From: Pseudomonadota bacterium
Lineage (GTDB): Bacteria > Pseudomonadota > Gammaproteobacteria > Acidiferrobacterales > Acidiferrobacteraceae
Length of the DNA stretch: 64,000 nucleotides
NCBI GenBank assembly: GCA_021785035.1
Contig: JAJYGP010000025.1
Location: 220,351 to 284,350 of the forward strand
Reading direction: 5' to 3'
Part shown: positions 1 through 8,091 of the stretch, one piece after another
How the letters are laid out: every line of letters begins with the position of its first letter
How positions within the stretch are numbered: the stretch's first letter is position 1
The notes under the pieces: model-generated
What the model was told of the DNA's origin: nothing
The model's database searches: none
Seen by the model: the letters and a program-made list of their open reading frames with translations, nothing else
Program-made: the position numbers and the translations under genes

Positions 1-57
1 CTTCTCGCGGACCTGGCCCCGCGCGGGGTCTTCCGCGCCGCCACACCGATCGCGCAT

Positions 58-1056
58 GTGCTCGTGACCACGATCACGCCATCACTTTTTCTTATCGCCC
101 TCTATACGCGGCTCCTGGAAACCCAATCCGATGCCGTCCTGGGCATTGGGCGCTTTAGTCAGGCGGTTAAGGATATCGCCGTATGGGGCACGCTCCTCGT
201 GGCCTATTTTGAGGTCGGCCAACTGGTTTCGCACTATCTCAATGCTCTGTACGCGGCCATGGCCCATGTCGGGTCGTTGCGTCAGGTGGCTCTGCGTATG
301 GCGGCGTTACTCAGGACGGCAGGGCGTGGTCCAAGTGGCGTCTGGGGGACCATCAAGGAGCTCAATGCCTTCCCGCTGCGCCTGACCACGGTATTGTTTT
401 ACTACGCAACGCTCGTCATGGCGACGTTCCTGGAGGCGCTGTTACGGATCGCCCAGGCGATCGGATATGAAGTCGCTTTCCTCTATGGCCTCATTGCCAT
501 TCCCTTGACCCTCAGTCGAACCTTATCGCTGTTACGCGGGTTCGCAAAGCTCATGGGATTCTTCGTCCTTTGGCCGGTCGTTCAAGCGCTTTTGCTCGCG
601 GTCTTTTCGCCGATCTTTACTCGTGCGGTGGCGGATCTTCAGACAATCCTGGGCCCCAGCGATTATATGGTTGTGTACGCGCACATGCTTTTTACAATCC
701 TAAATCTCATTCTTTGTGCGGTCTTGCTGGCCGCGCCCTACGTTACGGCAAGCCTTGTCGAAAACGCAGGTGCCGCAAGCCCCCTTATGAGCCCGTACTT
801 CGGGGCCCTGACGTCCACTGGCGCGTCGCTTGCTGCCGGAGTGGGCCTAGGCACTGCGTACTTGGCGCGCCCCTTACTTGAGGAAGATGAGCGTGAGCTT
901 GAGTCGGTTGCGCCACGACCGGTTGGCACCTTCCATGTGCCGAGAGATCCGGACTATTGGCCGCTTTCAGCCGATGCCACGGTGCCCCTTACCAATTACT
1001 TGGATCCACGGTTTGACGGTCCGCTCAAGAAGGAGGATAGCCATGACGGCCCTTGA
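58..1056 (+). CDS. Polytopic membrane protein, possibly VirB6/TrbL-like T4SS inner-membrane component (frame open to the left window edge, start uncertain)
   Basis: Many hydrophobic segments; first gene of an overlapping operon followed by VirB8/9/10-like ORFs; no stop upstream to base 1. Confidence 0.45.
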   Translation: MLVTTITPSLFLIALYTRLLETQSDAVLGIGRFSQAVKDIAVWGTLLVAYFEVGQLVSHYLNALYAAMAHVGSLRQVALRMAALLRTAGRGPSGVWGTIKELNAFPLRLTTVLFYYATLVMATFLEALLRIAQAIGYEVAFLYGLIAIPLTLSRTLSLLRGFAKLMGFFVLWPVVQALLLAVFSPIFTRAVADLQTILGPSDYMVVYAHMLFTILNLILCAVLLAAPYVTASLVENAGAASPLMSPYFGALTSTGASLAAGVGLGTAYLARPLLEEDERELESVAPRPVGTFHVPRDPDYWPLSADATVPLTNYLDPRFDGPLKKEDSHDGP

Positions 1057-1669
1057 AACCAATGTTTGGCTGCGCCACGGACCGCAAGGAATGCTCATGC
1101 AGCGCTTGGCGCGCTACGCGATGTTGGGGTGGGTGCTTTTTGCTTGTGCCGCGATCGCCTTTGCTGTTTTGGCGGTCCTCACGGCTTGGCGCACGCCCCC
1201 TATTATTGCCGTGAGTCGCGATGGCGCCTTACTCGGGCATATGCAATGGTTAGGACGCGCACATCGCTCGCGGGCCGAAATCGTAGCGGCCTCAATGCGA
1301 TTTGTGCGGGATTATCTGAGCGTAAACCACAATACCGTGGTTCCAGATTACGTGCAGGCGCTCGATATGATGGCGCCTAGGCTGAGACGAGCGACCGTAA
1401 AGGCCCTACAAAAAACTGCCTATATAGCCAGAGTCCGCAACGCCCATATTCGTTCCTGGGTAAGCTTCGATAAAGGCCGTAAAAGGCCGCGTGTAGTGAG
1501 CGTGTCTGGAGGCGTCTCGCATGTGCGCCTATCCGGTGTCATTCACTTAATCTTTCCTTCGGGACCGAGCCGGCGTCAGGGCTTCACTGTGATTTTGACT
1601 GTGAGCTCAGTGCCGCGTCGAACGTACGATACCGCAGGACTTGTCATTCGCGATGTCCGGGGCTTGTGA
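1043..1669 (+). CDS. VirB8/TraE-like bitopic inner-membrane protein
   Basis: AGGAGG at 1031 before ATG 1043; single N-terminal TM (MLGWVLFACAAIAFAVLAVLTAW) followed by soluble periplasmic domain; 14-nt overlap with previous ORF. Confidence 0.5.
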   Translation: MTALETNVWLRHGPQGMLMQRLARYAMLGWVLFACAAIAFAVLAVLTAWRTPPIIAVSRDGALLGHMQWLGRAHRSRAEIVAASMRFVRDYLSVNHNTVVPDYVQALDMMAPRLRRATVKALQKTAYIARVRNAHIRSWVSFDKGRKRPRVVSVSGGVSHVRLSGVIHLIFPSGPSRRQGFTVILTVSSVPRRTYDTAGLVIRDVRGL

Positions 1670-2433
1670 TGGCCGCGCTACCGGCAAACATCGCCCCGCT
1701 TGTGCCGCGCGCACGGTACGTGGTATTGCGTCCGTACACATCTATCGGGGTCCTGGTGGTACCCAATCTCGGCCTGCGGCTGATGTTCCCGCAGTCCTAC
1801 GGCGCGCGGCTGACGTTTGCCGTGACGAACCCGCTTTTCAAAGCCACTCGGCTTGGTCCAACGTCTCTGCTCCTGACTGTGGCCCGCGGTCTTTCCCATC
1901 GCTATTGTGGGGACGTTTTTGTGGGTGCCGGTCGCTCGTCTGCGTCTATCCTTGTGTGTACCTCGGGAAGGGCTCAGGACTACGTAAGCGACATTATCTT
2001 CGTCCGTCCGCCCCTTAAGCCCTTGGCTAGACTATCCGCTATTAGGCCACCGCGCCCTCCCGTCTGGAGGAAAGTGTTAGCGAATGTGGCCTTTGGTCAC
2101 AACCCTCATGAGGACATAAAAAAGCGTCAAGTCTTAACGCGCGGAGATCTCTCAAGCACTGTGTCGGTAAGTCGATTTCTGTTCGCAAATCGTCATGCAG
2201 TCCTGGGATTTGCCGTGACCGCGTCACGAAAATCAGCCCTCCTTGTCAGTGACGCGGCCCTATACCGGGGCCGAAAGACGTGGCGCCGGATCCCTGGCGC
2301 CGTCGTCTGTACGGTCGTTCGTGGTGTCCATGAAACCCGCTGCGCTCTTGTTATAGCAAGACCTAAGTCGGCCGTATCGCGCTGGCACCTCGTCGTTATG
2401 CTCGGTTCCGGGGCCACGAGGCTATCGTGGTGA
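1666..2433 (+). CDS. VirB9/TraK-like T4SS component (tentative)
   Basis: Beta-rich predicted protein between VirB8-like and VirB10-like ORFs; start overlaps the previous stop. Confidence 0.4.
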   Translation: MMAALPANIAPLVPRARYVVLRPYTSIGVLVVPNLGLRLMFPQSYGARLTFAVTNPLFKATRLGPTSLLLTVARGLSHRYCGDVFVGAGRSSASILVCTSGRAQDYVSDIIFVRPPLKPLARLSAIRPPRPPVWRKVLANVAFGHNPHEDIKKRQVLTRGDLSSTVSVSRFLFANRHAVLGFAVTASRKSALLVSDAALYRGRKTWRRIPGAVVCTVVRGVHETRCALVIARPKSAVSRWHLVVMLGSGATRLSW

Positions 2434-3167
2434 CTACGATGCCAACCCATACCGCAGCCATCGTACAAAGGCTTGCCCACCGCAGGCCTGATACGCCTTC
2501 AGTATTGGGTCGCATCTTGCGATGGATGCCGAGGCTCGAGAGAAGGCCAGTCCTGGCTTCGGCGCCAATACGGCGTCCTCATCCGACTGTGCGTGCAACA
2601 TCAATCGCGTTCACGATCTACACGCGCCATGCAACGCCGCACGTTTATCTCCCGCCGGCCGCCGGTATTGGCTTGCGTGCCGGAACCTGGATACCGGTTC
2701 GCTTGCGCCACGGTATTGCCGATACCGATCCTGCGCTCGTGGTCTTGCATGTGCTGCGGCCAATTAAAGGACAGATCGGGTCCCTGTCGCCAGGAACGCG
2801 ATTACTCGCGCGGGTGGAGTCAGCTTTTGGGCACAGGCTGGGCTTGTCGGTGTTCCAAGCGGTCACACCGAACAATCAAAGTATTCCCCTTAAAGCTCAG
2901 GTCTTCGACGTGCGCTTCCATTTCGGGTTGCCGGCATTCGTGGTGGGCGGGCGGCGGGCAGCGGTCCTAGTTGCGTTCGGGCGATCGTTTCTTGCGAGCG
3001 CTGACGTAGCTTTTGGCATGATGGGGGCGCAGGGATCGTTGGCATCGGCGGCATTGGGTCGCGCCGGGCAAAGAACGCTTGCCGCTACGATGCCCTCGCG
3101 CTCCACGCGATATGTCCTATATGCGCCGGCCCAAAACGCCTATGTTCAGACCCAGAGCGGATCATGA
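2427..3167 (+). CDS. VirB10/TrbI-like T4SS protein
   Basis: C-terminal segment GTRLLARVESAFGHRLGLSVFQAVTPNNQSIPLKAQVFD resembles the TrbI/VirB10 core pattern; overlaps previous ORF. Confidence 0.5.
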   Translation: MVTTMPTHTAAIVQRLAHRRPDTPSVLGRILRWMPRLERRPVLASAPIRRPHPTVRATSIAFTIYTRHATPHVYLPPAAGIGLRAGTWIPVRLRHGIADTDPALVVLHVLRPIKGQIGSLSPGTRLLARVESAFGHRLGLSVFQAVTPNNQSIPLKAQVFDVRFHFGLPAFVVGGRRAAVLVAFGRSFLASADVAFGMMGAQGSLASAALGRAGQRTLAATMPSRSTRYVLYAPAQNAYVQTQSGS

Positions 3168-3709
3168 TGCGTGCCCTGATCGCGGTCTGTCTGTTCCTTA
3201 TTCCTATCGACGTCCTCGGATGGCAGTTGGCCGTTGGCGGCGGCGTCACCGCCGGCCTCGTTCGTGGCCGTGCGCCTACCGGGACAGCCACCGGCTGGGA
3301 TGTTTTGGCGCAGTGGACTCGCCAGCCGTTCGTTGGGCAGCGCTGGGCCGTCGACCTAGAGGCCGGGCAATTCGCGACCGAAAAAATAAACGGCGGACTT
3401 CTCGAGCGCGGAAGACTCGAAAGTGCGGCAGTGTTGTGGGAGAGACGCGTACCCCTACGCTACGATTTGCGGCCCTGGTTCGGAATCGGAGCCGGTCTTG
3501 ACTACGTTCGTTACGACGATCGTCTGCGTCTCGACTCCCAAGAATATGCGGTAGCGGCCTATTCCGCGACACATGAGACCTCGGCGTGTCTCCAGGCGGC
3601 GATAGTTCTGCCGATCAGCAGATCGTGGTCGGCGTCTTTGGTCGGATCAACGGATTATCCAGGCCATCTTTCGACAATAACCATGACATTTATCTGGAGG
3701 CTATTGTGA
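3164..3709 (+). CDS. Small outer-membrane beta-barrel-like protein
   Basis: Signal peptide (MMRALIAVCLFLIPIDVLGWQ), alternating amphipathic strands; ATGA overlap with previous ORF. Confidence 0.5.
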   Translation: MMRALIAVCLFLIPIDVLGWQLAVGGGVTAGLVRGRAPTGTATGWDVLAQWTRQPFVGQRWAVDLEAGQFATEKINGGLLERGRLESAAVLWERRVPLRYDLRPWFGIGAGLDYVRYDDRLRLDSQEYAVAAYSATHETSACLQAAIVLPISRSWSASLVGSTDYPGHLSTITMTFIWRLL

Positions 3710-5127
3710 CAAAGTTATCACGAGTCTTAGTTCTCTCGATTTATAGTCTTACGCTGTGCGGATGCCAGCTTGGAAATCCCGGCACGCCCACAACCTTGCC
3801 CGCAGGATCGGTTGCCGGGTTCGTGGTTAGTAGTGGCCCCGTCGCCGGCGCCACGGTGACGGTGTACGGCCCAGGTGGCGCGGTCGCCAGCACCAGAACC
3901 GACGACAGCGGTTACTTCGCGGTTTCCCTTCAGGCTCTAAGCGGGACCATGAACGTTTCGGTGAGCGGCGGTTCTTCCCCTGGTGGAGCGACCGGCTCTA
4001 GCGCTCCACCGGGTCCCTTGAACGGAGTATTTTCCTACCAGGAAGGCCATGCCACCGAGATCGCAGTGACCCCGTTTACAACTGCCGCTGCGTCGCTTGC
4101 AAGCTTCTTCGTGACCCAAGGGTTATCCCTAGGGGCTGCGAGCGCAAAGGCAAATGGCGAGTTTACAGATTGGCTTGGCTTTGATGAGGCCAACGTCGTA
4201 CCTATTTTGGAGTCGCAACTCACAACCGCCCAGCCGTTTGACGCGGGAGTGCGTTATGGGCTTGTCATAGCGGCGCTATCCCAATGGGCAAGGTCCCAGG
4301 GTGTGCAGACCCCAGCGACTATTACGACGACCATGGTCTCGGATGTGGCGAATGACGGTGTCTTGAACGGGCAGGGAGCCCAGGGCGCCTTGTTTTTGGG
4401 GTCGGAGCCTTTGAGCCCGGAGGCTTACCGTAATGGTATCGCAAACGCGCTTATTCAGGTCGCTGCGTCGGAGCCAGCGGGAACGCCCGCATCGCTTTCG
4501 GGTCCTAACGCCACGGCCGTTATTGCTTACGCCCGCAGCCTAGCCCAGGGACCGGTCGCGCTGTTTGGAAATGAGACGCCGCCACCCTTCGCCGCAAGTC
4601 CCTTGGCGTTGAACGTACCGGCGTGGCCTACGTGGATCCATGGAAGCTTCCTGGTCTCTGGTTCTGTAATGGATCCGTTTGCCTTGCCGGCGACAGTCAC
4701 GGTCACGGTCGACGGCCAAGCCTACAGTCCGCTGCAAGCGGCTCCCGCGTTTGCGTTTTCCCTCAACACCATGGCACTCACCGACGGCCAACATAGCGTT
4801 GTCATCACAGCCCGCGATGCAGCCGGGCTCGCAGCCTCCGTAAGCCGAACCTTAGGGGTAGACAACAGTCCGCCGCGCGCTTGCCTATTGGTCTATGCAC
4901 CCCTGGTGCCAACCTTTATCGTATCCGGACAGTGGCAAGACATCTCGGGCGTGGTCGCGGCTACTATCAATGGTTTTCCGGCTCAGCTTTCCGGCACTGA
5001 CATATGGTACGGCACGGCGCCCCTCAGTGCGGGCCCGCTTGTCTTGACCTTGACGGATGCGGCCGGAAACGTCAATACCTTTTCGTGGCCGGTCAGTCCC
5101 TTATCAAACCCGGCCCCCTGCCCGTAA
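3706..5127 (+). CDS. Lipoprotein with carboxypeptidase-regulatory-like and Ig-like domains
   Basis: GTG start at 3706 overlapping upstream stop (GTGA); lipobox LTLCGC; VAGATVTVYGPGGAVASTRTDDSGYFAVSL and VTVTVDGQAYSPL...DGQHSVVITARDAAG repeats. Confidence 0.65.
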   Translation: MTKLSRVLVLSIYSLTLCGCQLGNPGTPTTLPAGSVAGFVVSSGPVAGATVTVYGPGGAVASTRTDDSGYFAVSLQALSGTMNVSVSGGSSPGGATGSSAPPGPLNGVFSYQEGHATEIAVTPFTTAAASLASFFVTQGLSLGAASAKANGEFTDWLGFDEANVVPILESQLTTAQPFDAGVRYGLVIAALSQWARSQGVQTPATITTTMVSDVANDGVLNGQGAQGALFLGSEPLSPEAYRNGIANALIQVAASEPAGTPASLSGPNATAVIAYARSLAQGPVALFGNETPPPFAASPLALNVPAWPTWIHGSFLVSGSVMDPFALPATVTVTVDGQAYSPLQAAPAFAFSLNTMALTDGQHSVVITARDAAGLAASVSRTLGVDNSPPRACLLVYAPLVPTFIVSGQWQDISGVVAATINGFPAQLSGTDIWYGTAPLSAGPLVLTLTDAAGNVNTFSWPVSPLSNPAPCP

Positions 5128-5238: not shown

Positions 5239-6420
5239 ATGGAAACCCTCGCGATTCCGCTGCCGGCCGATCTTCCGGCAGATATCTGCACTGAAATCAC
5301 AAAGCGCGCGTGTTATTGCGATACCTCAATTTTGAAATCCCGGTACCGAGCCGATTCGAATTGCCTCGAAATCGATCTCAGGGGGACTGGCGAGACCAGT
5401 GATATCGCAGCGAAAGTCGGGCTTTTGATCGGCAAGATGCAAGGCGAGCGTTTATCTGTGACTCCCAGAGTCCTTCGTAAACGGATTAGGGTAGGAAATC
5501 GTTTCGTGGCGGGTGCCTACCAACAGTTGACGGCCCGCGGGGATATCTGGGAGTCGGGCCAAGGGGTGACCGGCCGCGGTGGCGTGTTCATGGACCTTCT
5601 CGAGCGGCTTGACCGGCTGCTTGAGCGGGTCGCAGTCGGAAGTTTTGACGCGAAAAGACACGCATACAACGTTCTTCTTCCCAGCGACTGGCTTAAGCGC
5701 GCCGGCTATTTTGGATCGTTTTCTCACTCCGTGACGTTTGCTGTGCATCTCAACGAGAATTATGACGCGATCGAAAAGTTTTCGGCGCGGCATCGCAATG
5801 GAGAAAACCCGACCTTTCAAGATGTAGGCGAGATCGCCGCCCCAGAGCATTGTCTTTCCCCAGCCATTTGCTATCACACTTACGGCGCGCTTATGGGTAA
5901 AGCGCTTCCAGGGAACCTCTCGGTATTCACCGGAGGCGGCCGTTGCTTTCGATACGAGTCTAAAAATCTCGCGGGCCTAGATCGCCTGTGGGAGTTTTCC
6001 ATGCGCGAGATTATCTGGCTTGGCGAACAAGACCGGGTATTGGCGGCGCGAGAGGCGGCTATCGATGTCGGTTGGCAGCTAGTCGAGGCGCTCGATCTCT
6101 CCGCCAGGCTTGAGACGGCTTGCGACCCATTTTTCGCAAGCGATTTTCCGTCTTTGCGGTTCTTTCAGCTTGCGAACGATTTGAAATATGAGCTCAAGGT
6201 GGATATAGAGCGAGATCGTTCCATAGCCTGCGCGTCGTTTAATTATCACGAACGCTTTTTTGGTGCTCGTTTCGGCATTCAGACCGCCGGCCGGGAGGTA
6301 GCTCACACGGTCTGCGCGGCCTTTGGACTTGAGCGCCTCCTGTATGCTTGCTGTTGTCAGCATGGCCTAGAGCGGGCCGCCGAACTTATAGAGACGGCCG
6401 CCGGACAATGGGGAGCGTGA
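5239..6420 (+). CDS. Amino acid--[acyl-carrier-protein] ligase-like class II aaRS homologue
   Basis: Catalytic-core-only SerRS-like protein: EHCLSPAICYHTYGALMGKALPG...VFTGGGRCFRYES...RLWEFSMREIIWLG; no tRNA-binding domain. Confidence 0.75.
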   Translation: METLAIPLPADLPADICTEITKRACYCDTSILKSRYRADSNCLEIDLRGTGETSDIAAKVGLLIGKMQGERLSVTPRVLRKRIRVGNRFVAGAYQQLTARGDIWESGQGVTGRGGVFMDLLERLDRLLERVAVGSFDAKRHAYNVLLPSDWLKRAGYFGSFSHSVTFAVHLNENYDAIEKFSARHRNGENPTFQDVGEIAAPEHCLSPAICYHTYGALMGKALPGNLSVFTGGGRCFRYESKNLAGLDRLWEFSMREIIWLGEQDRVLAAREAAIDVGWQLVEALDLSARLETACDPFFASDFPSLRFFQLANDLKYELKVDIERDRSIACASFNYHERFFGARFGIQTAGREVAHTVCAAFGLERLLYACCCQHGLERAAELIETAAGQWGA

Positions 6421-6493
6421 GTCAATCGGGGTTTGTCCCTGAACTACACGATAGGAGATAGCGTGTGTTGGCTACGGCCTTCCCGCCGGTATT

Positions 6494-7498
6494 ATGAAGA
6501 TTGAGTCGATCGAGCTTTTTAACGAGATTGTTAATCCCGATTTGGATCAGGTGAGCGCCCTCATGAGGGCCAATTGGCAGCCGCCGTGCTGGCTGTATGA
6601 ACCGGATCTTTTGGCCATGCATCTTCATAGGCCGACGGGAGACCCGACCATGGCGGTCGGGCTTCAAAGTCAAAGCGGCAAGCTCGCCGCGTATTTGGCC
6701 TTTGTTCCACTCCGGTTACGACTCTATGGGTCGACATATAAGGCGGTGTTTGCCAGCTTTTTCACTGTGTCTGGCGAGTTTAGGCGGCATAGACTGAGTG
6801 ATCGCCAGCAGCTGTTGATGGTCGACCGGGCGCGGGCTCGCGGTTACGATCTTTACGTTGCGGTCACCGTGGCCGGTACGCCGGCCAATCAGACCGTGTC
6901 GCGGGCGTTTGCGGCACGCGGCCTGCCGGTAAAGGCCGTTCGAAATTTTCGATATTTGGCGGGTGCCGCGGCCATTGTCTCGAGTCGCATCAATCGTGAT
7001 CCGGGTATGACCATTCGCTCCTACGAAAAAAAGGATGAGACGCAGGCTTTCGAGTTGTTGTCGCAAGCCGGTGCTATGGCGACTATCGCCAAGGTCGTCG
7101 AGCACGAGGATGTCGATTTCATGCTGCGCACGCGGCCGCGTATTGTCACCTACGTCTATGAAGATGATGGACGGGTTCTGGCCCTTTTGAATATCGCATT
7201 TTTGCCGGTGGTTTCGGGGCATGTAGGCATGAATGCCTATGTTGAGAATATTGCCCTGGGAAGCTTACCGGTCGCCACGAGAGAGCGATTCGTCGAAGCG
7301 GTTATGCATAGAATTTTGGGCGAGGGGGTGGAGGCGGTCATGGTGCCCGACACCGGCTATTGCGACCCGCAGCCGTTTCGGCGTCTCGGTTTTCGCGCGG
7401 CCCCCAGGAAGCTGCGCTTGTTGCTGGCGCCGCTGCGCGCGGGTGTACTAGCCGAGGTGCCAGACGCAATCGATTCCTTTTGTCTCGATGTTTTTTAG
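6494..7498 (+). CDS. GNAT-like acetyltransferase/hypothetical protein
   Basis: 334 aa with GNAT-like pattern (AAYLAFVPLRLRLYGSTYKAVFASFFTVSGEFRRHRLSDRQQLLMVDRARARGYDLYVAV). Confidence 0.5.
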   Translation: MKIESIELFNEIVNPDLDQVSALMRANWQPPCWLYEPDLLAMHLHRPTGDPTMAVGLQSQSGKLAAYLAFVPLRLRLYGSTYKAVFASFFTVSGEFRRHRLSDRQQLLMVDRARARGYDLYVAVTVAGTPANQTVSRAFAARGLPVKAVRNFRYLAGAAAIVSSRINRDPGMTIRSYEKKDETQAFELLSQAGAMATIAKVVEHEDVDFMLRTRPRIVTYVYEDDGRVLALLNIAFLPVVSGHVGMNAYVENIALGSLPVATRERFVEAVMHRILGEGVEAVMVPDTGYCDPQPFRRLGFRAAPRKLRLLLAPLRAGVLAEVPDAIDSFCLDVF

Positions 7499-7500
7499 AT

Positions 7501-8091
7501 ATGCGCAAAAAATTGAAGGAAGGGGTACGCTGTGTGCTCATGCTGTCGGGAGCCGTGCTGGCGTTCCCGTTTGTCGCTTTGACCAAGCTTGATCGCTGGG
7601 TTGACGAACGAGACGCCCTCTTTATCTTGAGTGCTCAGGCGCTTGCCGGACTGCCCGGGGTCATCGGAAACGCGGCCCGGGCGGCCTACTACGAACGGAC
7701 GCTCGCGCTTTTTGAGAAGGGGGCGGTCATCAGCTTCGGTAGTTATTTTTCGAAGCGCGGCGCGCGCGTCTTCGCTCATGCCGGGATCGGCGCCTATTGT
7801 ATTATTGGTCTTGCCGATGTGGGCACCCATGCCCGGATAGCAAGTCGCGTGTCGATTACCTCGGGCTTACACTACCATGGCGGGGCAGGAGGCTTAAGCG
7901 ATAAGGATTGCGTGGAAAGGGTGTCGATCGGCGCCTATGCCTGGATCGGGGAGGGTGCCGTGATCGGGGCCGACATCGGCGCCCATAGTATTGTCGGCAT
8001 GGGTTCGGTCGTAGTCCAAGCGGTTCCCGAGGGGGTCACAGTCCTCGGGAATCCGGCGCGCCGGATTCCCCCGATAGCGCACTCCGCTTAG
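7501..8091 (+). CDS. Left-handed beta-helix (hexapeptide) acyltransferase with N-terminal hydrophobic segment
   Basis: Hexapeptide repeats IGAYCIIGLADVGTHARIASRVSI...IGAYAWIGEGAVIGADIGAHSIVGMGSVV; ends VLGNPARRI as in WbbJ/CysE-type enzymes. Confidence 0.75.
   Translation: MRKKLKEGVRCVLMLSGAVLAFPFVALTKLDRWVDERDALFILSAQALAGLPGVIGNAARAAYYERTLALFEKGAVISFGSYFSKRGARVFAHAGIGAYCIIGLADVGTHARIASRVSITSGLHYHGGAGGLSDKDCVERVSIGAYAWIGEGAVIGADIGAHSIVGMGSVVVQAVPEGVTVLGNPARRIPPIAHSA

Follow-up and report, generated by a model that had tools for sequence, protein, structure and literature searches.

Gene organization of the locus

The stretch of DNA analyzed here (the window; 64,000 nucleotides (nt) of contig JAJYGP010000025.1 from GenBank assembly GCA_021785035.1) begins with six open reading frames (ORFs) on the plus strand, which occupy positions 1–5127 and encode parts of a type IV secretion system (T4SS) that has strongly diverged. 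As described in the first-pass annotation of the sequence, these ORFs overlap at each of their five junctions (1043/1056, 1666/1669, 2427/2433, 3164/3167, and 3706/3709). For the region left of the window, we used a longer stretch from the same contig (L001; window position = L001 position − 12351), which was read 12 kb beyond the window edge. Four further overlapping genes were detected there, and the six-ORF run is the right half of a ten-gene operon with the order VirB2-VirB3-VirB4-VirB5-VirB6-VirB8-VirB9-VirB10-barrel-immunoglobulin (Ig)-like lipoprotein (Table 1). All nine junctions overlap, by 4, 10, 11, 4, 14, 4, 7, 4, and 4 nt, while 111 nt separate the last gene of the operon from the next downstream gene. 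This overlapping arrangement of ten genes is not due to chance.

The first-pass annotation had correctly noted that no ATPase gene lies inside the window, had held that a genome lacking any T4SS ATPase would refute the idea of a T4SS, and had suggested looking further left for VirB4, VirD4, and relaxase genes. A VirB4/TraC ATPase gene indeed lies to the left, with its end about 640 bases from the window edge, and a coupling protein and a relaxase are encoded at a second chromosomal locus.

In the following, G000 denotes the window's own genome and other G numbers denote compared genomes; the genus is read as Acidiferrobacter. The gene order of the operon is kept in 17 genomes of the family, with two exceptions: in G001 the right part of the operon is cut off by the contig end, and in G014 VirB3 gave no tblastn match, yet an ORF sits at the expected position.

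Table 1. Genes of the T4SS operon and the coupling-protein gene of the second locus. Positions without prefix refer to the window.
Feature	Position	Strand	Basis or remark
VirB2 pilin	L001:8838-9140 (left of window)		PF04956, E = 4e-6
VirB3-like membrane protein, 89 amino acids (aa)	L001:9137-9406 (left of window)		size, hydropathy, position
VirB4/TraC ATPase	L001:9397-11715 (left of window)		TIGR02746, E = 1.9e-17
VirB5-like secreted protein	L001:11705-12328 (left of window)		size, hydropathy, position
VirB6-like polytopic inner-membrane protein, 360 aa	1..1056	+	starts 27 bases left of window (L001:12325)
VirB8-like bitopic protein	1043..1669	+	weak PF04335, one transmembrane helix
VirB9/TraK-like outer-membrane-complex protein	1666..2433	+	AlphaFold2 model and Foldseek
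VirB10/TrbI-like protein	2427..3167	+	PF03743, CagY profile match
8-stranded outer-membrane beta-barrel	3164..3709	+	AlphaFold2 and Foldseek
Large lipoprotein, carboxypeptidase-regulatory-like and Big_13 Ig-like domains; last operon gene	3706..5127	+	lipobox, PF13620, PF19077
VirD4/TrwB-like coupling protein, 552 aa	G000:C98:36327-37979		PF10412, E = 1.1e-9

Identity of the encoded components

The VirB4 ATPase matched the TraC model TIGR02746 over residues 371–679, scoring 62 bits against a cut-off of 567, and gave zero matches in Pfam. A search of its own genome with the PF03135 (CagE_TrbE_VirB) profile was empty despite the presence of VirB4, because this protein is too diverged. Its P-loop reads A-x-T-G-x-G-K-G-V in almost all relatives instead of the canonical Walker A motif GxxxxGKS/T, while Walker B is kept; exceptions are the distant relative L104 with GKS and L103 with GKD. 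No VirB11 ATPase was found in the operon or its flanks, to which the search for this protein was confined.

For the VirB2 pilin, the score of the PF04956 match (E = 4.2e-6) was slightly under the gathering score. The assignment of VirB8 is weak: PF04335 gave E = 0.1 for the window protein and E = 0.015 for the best homologue, and 2 of 15 members matched; a single transmembrane helix at residues 28–46 gives a topology that fits VirB8. Family searches with VirB3, VirB5, and VirB6 were empty, and we assigned these three proteins from size, hydropathy, and position only. Since Pfam gave no match for the VirB6-like protein, position and hydropathy had to serve in its case: it contains several hydrophobic segments, is encoded between the VirB5-like gene and VirB8, and has homologues in all related loci. 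Profile searches of Protein Data Bank (PDB) sequences gave nothing useful with VirB4, VirB8, or VirB9, and with VirB8 none matched at all.

VirB9 had no sequence match. Its AlphaFold2 model (predicted local distance difference test (pLDDT) score 88) was most similar in Foldseek to F TraK (E = 9e-10), X. citri VirB9 (E = 1.6e-9), and R388 TrwF (E = 4e-9), with a target-normalised template-modelling (TM) score of 0.75 for the N-terminal domain of TrwF. The predicted fold thus supports its identity as VirB9. For VirB10, profile matches support the assignment: PF03743 (TrbI) was detected with E = 0.001 in the window protein and with 5e-7 in its homologue from a plasmid of Candidatus Tenderia electrophaga, and the VirB10 profile matched CagY (E = 7e-4).

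The protein encoded downstream of VirB10 was modelled as a barrel of eight long strands resembling OmpA/OmpW (AlphaFold2, pLDDT 89). Its Foldseek matches were Ail/OmpX/OmpA/OmpW and also the Dot/Icm porin III (9nh2, E = 1e-4); the latter, from Legionella, provides a precedent for small barrels beside T4SSs. According to an alignment, barrel homologues are present in most related T4SS loci, including that of Tenderia. The final protein of the operon carries a lipobox (L-T-L-C-G-C) near its start together with matches to PF13620 (E = 2e-6) and PF19077 (Big_13; E = 3e-6). Counterparts of this lipoprotein occupy the same operon position across the family and are also found beside the Tenderia and L104 systems. 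The proposal of a diverged T4SS scaffold in the first-pass annotation is therefore borne out by the VirB10 profiles, the VirB9 fold, and the VirB4 gene next door. Its assignments of VirB9, VirB10, the barrel, and the Ig-like lipoprotein held, while that of VirB8 is the weak one given above and that of VirB6 is positional.

A fixed chromosomal position under purifying selection

All 14 genus genomes have VirB4, as do three of four other family members, and none of the VirB4 matches contained a stop codon. The position of the operon between bioC and rpoH is shared by the 14 congeners checked and, where it can be seen, by the sister genus. The left neighbours bioF-bioH-bioC and the right neighbour rpoH recur in nearly all genomes where the fetched stretch reaches that far; in G014, rpoH was found and the bioC side was not. 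Four order-level relatives were inspected for bioC beside rpoH; they had rpoH without bioC and gave no ancestral empty site. Ratios of nonsynonymous to synonymous substitutions (dN/dS) were 0.065 and 0.097 for VirB4 and 0.04–0.29 for all operon genes, compared with 0.085 for the adjoining bioC. The operon is under purifying selection and is not decaying.

Attachment sites and island boundaries, for which the first-pass annotation had recommended a search, did not appear. Direct repeats of at least 16 bases were absent around the operon, no tRNA gene was found at it, and the neighbouring genes include no integrase. Its GC content resembles that of the flanks without any step. An effector-like gene was not seen beside the operon either.

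Directly 3′ of the operon, positions 5239–8091 encode an amino-acid:[acyl-carrier-protein] ligase-like protein (PRK07080, E = 1.8e-43), a GNAT/NMT-like acyltransferase, and a hexapeptide-repeat transferase. Most congeners keep this three-gene cassette between the T4SS and rpoH; it was not detected in G012, G013, or the sister genus. A gene for a carrier protein was not seen.

Coupling protein and relaxase at a second locus

The own genome contains three TraG-D_C matches, one of which, on contig C98, is a VirD4/TrwB-like coupling protein with a canonical Walker A motif (GGIGSGKT). This protein was found in all 14 genus genomes (66–86% identity) and in G014. A MobA/MobL relaxase gene (PF03389, E = 2.6e-32) adjoins it in divergent orientation. 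In each of these 15 genomes (14 congeners and G014) exactly one MobA/MobL relaxase is present, always beside the coupling protein. Fourteen of the relaxase sequences were extracted correctly, and these retain the motif-I tyrosine along with the H-x7-H-x-H triad; no stop codons occur in the relaxase matches. The relaxase of G010 was mis-extracted for the tree, so that the relaxase tree and the correlations derived from it are indicative only; the profile match of G010 is intact. Relaxases of the PF03432 family were absent from the Acidiferrobacter genomes searched.

Both genes of the second locus are constrained (dN/dS 0.15 for the coupling protein and 0.18 for the relaxase), and the T4SS occurs together with both partners in 15 of the 17 T4SS-bearing genomes of the family. 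In G015, VirB4, the coupling protein, and the MobA/MobL relaxase are all missing. Distances of VirB4 and the coupling protein correlate with r = 0.94, and their trees match closely. These trees point to co-inheritance and by themselves not to interaction, since general vertical inheritance would also make them match.

In the own genome, the relaxase gene is followed by 4.2 kb (L093:11294-15535) without counterpart in most congeners compared, in most of which the next conserved gene lies within a few hundred bases of the relaxase gene. Stronger PF12696 matches were obtained on small contigs for two canonical TraD/TrwB-type coupling proteins (G000:C2:1604-2755 and G000:C49:13945-15039), which probably belong to mobile elements.

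Relatives outside the genus and comparison with known systems

A VirB4 of the Acidiferrobacter operon kind was present in 8 of 369 genomes of a class-wide sample. Among 72,556 plasmids a single close relative was found, on the 106.9 kb plasmid CP013100 of Candidatus Tenderia electrophaga. Its VirB4 is 47% identical, and its homologous operon likewise ends in a barrel and a large Ig lipoprotein, here of 960 aa. Unlike the Acidiferrobacter system, it is plasmid-borne and has a coupling protein of another type encoded directly upstream of the pore genes, together with a ParB-like gene. All genes of this operon are annotated as 'hypothetical', and MOB-suite reported MOBP with no mating-pair formation (MPF) type.

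A split layout also occurs in the genus g7 of the same order, in which a Tenderia-type coupling protein (47% identical) is encoded at a chromosomal locus of its own, apart from the T4SS and with the same flanking genes in two genomes. The gene is intact in both g7 genomes that have VirB4. In G030, a g7 genome without VirB4 match, it is split into frame-shifted pieces (L142, G030:C119:5244-6785). This breakage of the coupling protein where VirB4 is missing supports the view that split loci work together.

With the VirB/Trw system of R388 (MPF_T), the operon shares the gene order VirB2-3-4-5-6-8-9-10, the VirB2 pilin family, and a VirB9 fold close to TrwF. In contrast to R388, it has neither a lipoprotein of VirB7 size nor VirB11, contains the barrel and the Ig lipoprotein in addition, and has its relaxase and coupling protein at a separate locus. 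None of the operon proteins gave a significant sequence match to R388, and neither did profiles of VirB4, VirB8, VirB9, and VirB10 when compared with F and R388 proteins. The F-type systems (MPF_F) are similar in that VirB4 scores as TraC and F TraK is the best match of the VirB9 fold; on the other hand, the TraC score is far under the cut-off, the gene order differs, and F-specific genes (TraW, TraU, TrbC, TraN, TraF, TraH, and others) are absent from the operon.

The gonococcal genetic island encodes a chromosomal T4SS, together with a relaxase and a coupling protein, for the secretion of chromosomal single-stranded DNA (ssDNA) (PMC4207684). It has the same three elements on the chromosome and serves as our working functional analogy. 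It differs in being a variable island at dif of the MPF_F class whose relatives mostly have MOBH relaxases (PMC4207684), whereas the Acidiferrobacter system is genus-wide, syntenic, and distributed over two loci, with a MobA/MobL relaxase. The core T4SS of Patescibacteria is lineage-wide, belongs mostly to one VirB4 clade, and is not scattered on mobile elements (PMC12102498); unlike the system described here, it comprises monoderm-like MPF_FATA relatives in which most outer-membrane components are missing. Concerning the lipoprotein, Ig-like Big-domain proteins from transfer regions of IncHI, IncA/C, and IncP2 plasmids bind flagella and conjugative pili and promote conjugation (PMC8730810). 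Those proteins are exported to the medium, while the Acidiferrobacter protein is a predicted lipoprotein encoded by the last gene of a pore operon. Several defining components mark the operon as a T4SS, which fits none of the systems compared, which represent part of the eight MPF classes described (PMC12102498). A literature search found no paper on the Acidiferrobacter or Tenderia form of the system.

Proposed function and alternative explanations

The analysis shows the components, their conservation, and the co-inheritance of both loci. We consider it moderately probable that the ten genes encode the mating pore of a strongly diverged T4SS, fixed and vertically inherited in the Acidiferrobacter chromosome, which donates DNA together with its partners from the second locus. 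Most likely, this is a new, two-locus T4SS subtype whose substrate, as we infer, would be relaxase-bound chromosomal ssDNA. The relaxase would nick chromosomal DNA at a putative origin of transfer (oriT), and the coupling protein would pass the relaxase-ssDNA complex to the inner-membrane part composed of VirB4, VirB6, and VirB8. The complex would then leave the cell through the VirB9/VirB10 channel of this reduced VirB pore, with the VirB2 pilus helping. The OmpA-like barrel and the surface-located Ig lipoprotein, in place of VirB7 and adhesins, may provide outer-membrane anchoring and mating-pair contact, the role of the lipoprotein being modelled on the Ig-like proteins of IncHI and IncA/C conjugation (PMC8730810). 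The outcome would be a heritable trait of the lineage, either a donation of chromosomal DNA to neighbouring cells resembling that of Hfr (high frequency of recombination) strains or a release of ssDNA.

Several observations weigh against DNA donation by the two loci. The strongest are two. G016 and G017 (94% and 80% complete) keep the T4SS operon, and neither the coupling protein nor a MobA/MobL relaxase was found in them. Also, the Acidiferrobacter coupling protein and that of the plasmid relative are of different types with 23% identity, so that the pairing of the two Acidiferrobacter loci rests on co-inheritance. In G059 and G062, too, the T4SS is present, amid housekeeping genes, and no match to a coupling protein exceeded the cut-off. 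The relaxase diverges fastest (about 42–44% identity between clades), and its distances correlate with those of VirB4 at only 0.63, a figure that includes one mis-extracted sequence. A search for oriT in the intergenic region between relaxase and coupling protein identified none; it revealed a conserved stretch that probably reflects start sites and a promoter. In leader and hydropathy analyses, VirB9 and VirB10 of the Acidiferrobacteraceae begin directly with the mature domain and show no clear leader, VirB10 having neither a recognisable signal peptide nor an N-terminal transmembrane helix. Homologues from the Tenderia plasmid and from other loci do carry a leader. The VirB4 P-loop without serine or threonine also counts against DNA donation.

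In another reading, the T4SS would export proteins, either effectors or toxins directed at neighbours or surface proteins, among them the Ig lipoprotein of the operon; the coupling protein would then recruit protein substrates, and the relaxase would have a different role. Vertically kept chromosomal T4SSs often export proteins, the operon ends with a large lipoprotein of surface type, and the T4SS persists without coupling protein in G016, G017, G059, and G062. However, the surroundings of the operon lack effector-like genes, and a relaxase with intact active-site motifs adjoins the coupling protein in 15 genomes, which makes protein export unlikely in our view. The relatives without coupling protein would also be compatible with DNA uptake, for which a core chromosomal scaffold without a nearby coupling protein is known from the ComB system of Helicobacter. 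Import through such a scaffold is quite improbable here, as a coupling protein and a relaxase, both of which serve export, are co-conserved in Acidiferrobacter.

Alternatively, the two loci may be unrelated, with the T4SS having a role of its own and the coupling protein and relaxase representing an old mobilisation module that is kept for a different reason or serves other T4SSs in the cell. Their separate positions, the retention of the T4SS alone in G016 and G017, and the deviating type of the coupling protein compared with that beside the plasmid relatives agree with this. It is opposed by the matching presence of both loci in 15 of 17 T4SS-bearing genomes and their common absence from G015, and by the g7 layout; the matching trees argue in the same direction, although vertical inheritance alone would give them. 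On balance, we give this explanation little probability. Finally, the first-pass annotation had considered a remnant integrative conjugative element. In its favour, relatives are found on a plasmid and on contigs where ParB-like and coupling-protein genes precede those of the pore, but a remnant or decaying element is very improbable in view of the family-wide bioC-rpoH synteny, the low dN/dS of all operon genes, the flank-like GC content, and the lack of an integrase among the neighbouring genes, of direct repeats, and of tRNA genes.

Significance for the genus

Relaxase, coupling protein, and pore usually occur together on self-moving elements. In Acidiferrobacter, they are co-inherited genus-wide at two fixed chromosomal sites and are constrained, with no element surrounding them. 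The combination of a T4SS-linked barrel and Ig lipoprotein with an ATPase P-loop lacking the usual serine or threonine distinguishes this pore subtype, whose one plasmid carrier received no MPF type from MOB-suite and whose genes were annotated as 'hypothetical'. Gene exchange would be a trait under selection in the host, provided that the system moves DNA. Tentatively, conjugation might then have become a housekeeping trait of this lineage: a new Gram-negative T4SS subtype with a GKG-type VirB4, a barrel of its own, and a surface-located Ig lipoprotein, together with the chromosomal relaxase and coupling protein of the second fixed locus, might let cells in acidic habitats pass chromosomal DNA to one another in a programmed way.

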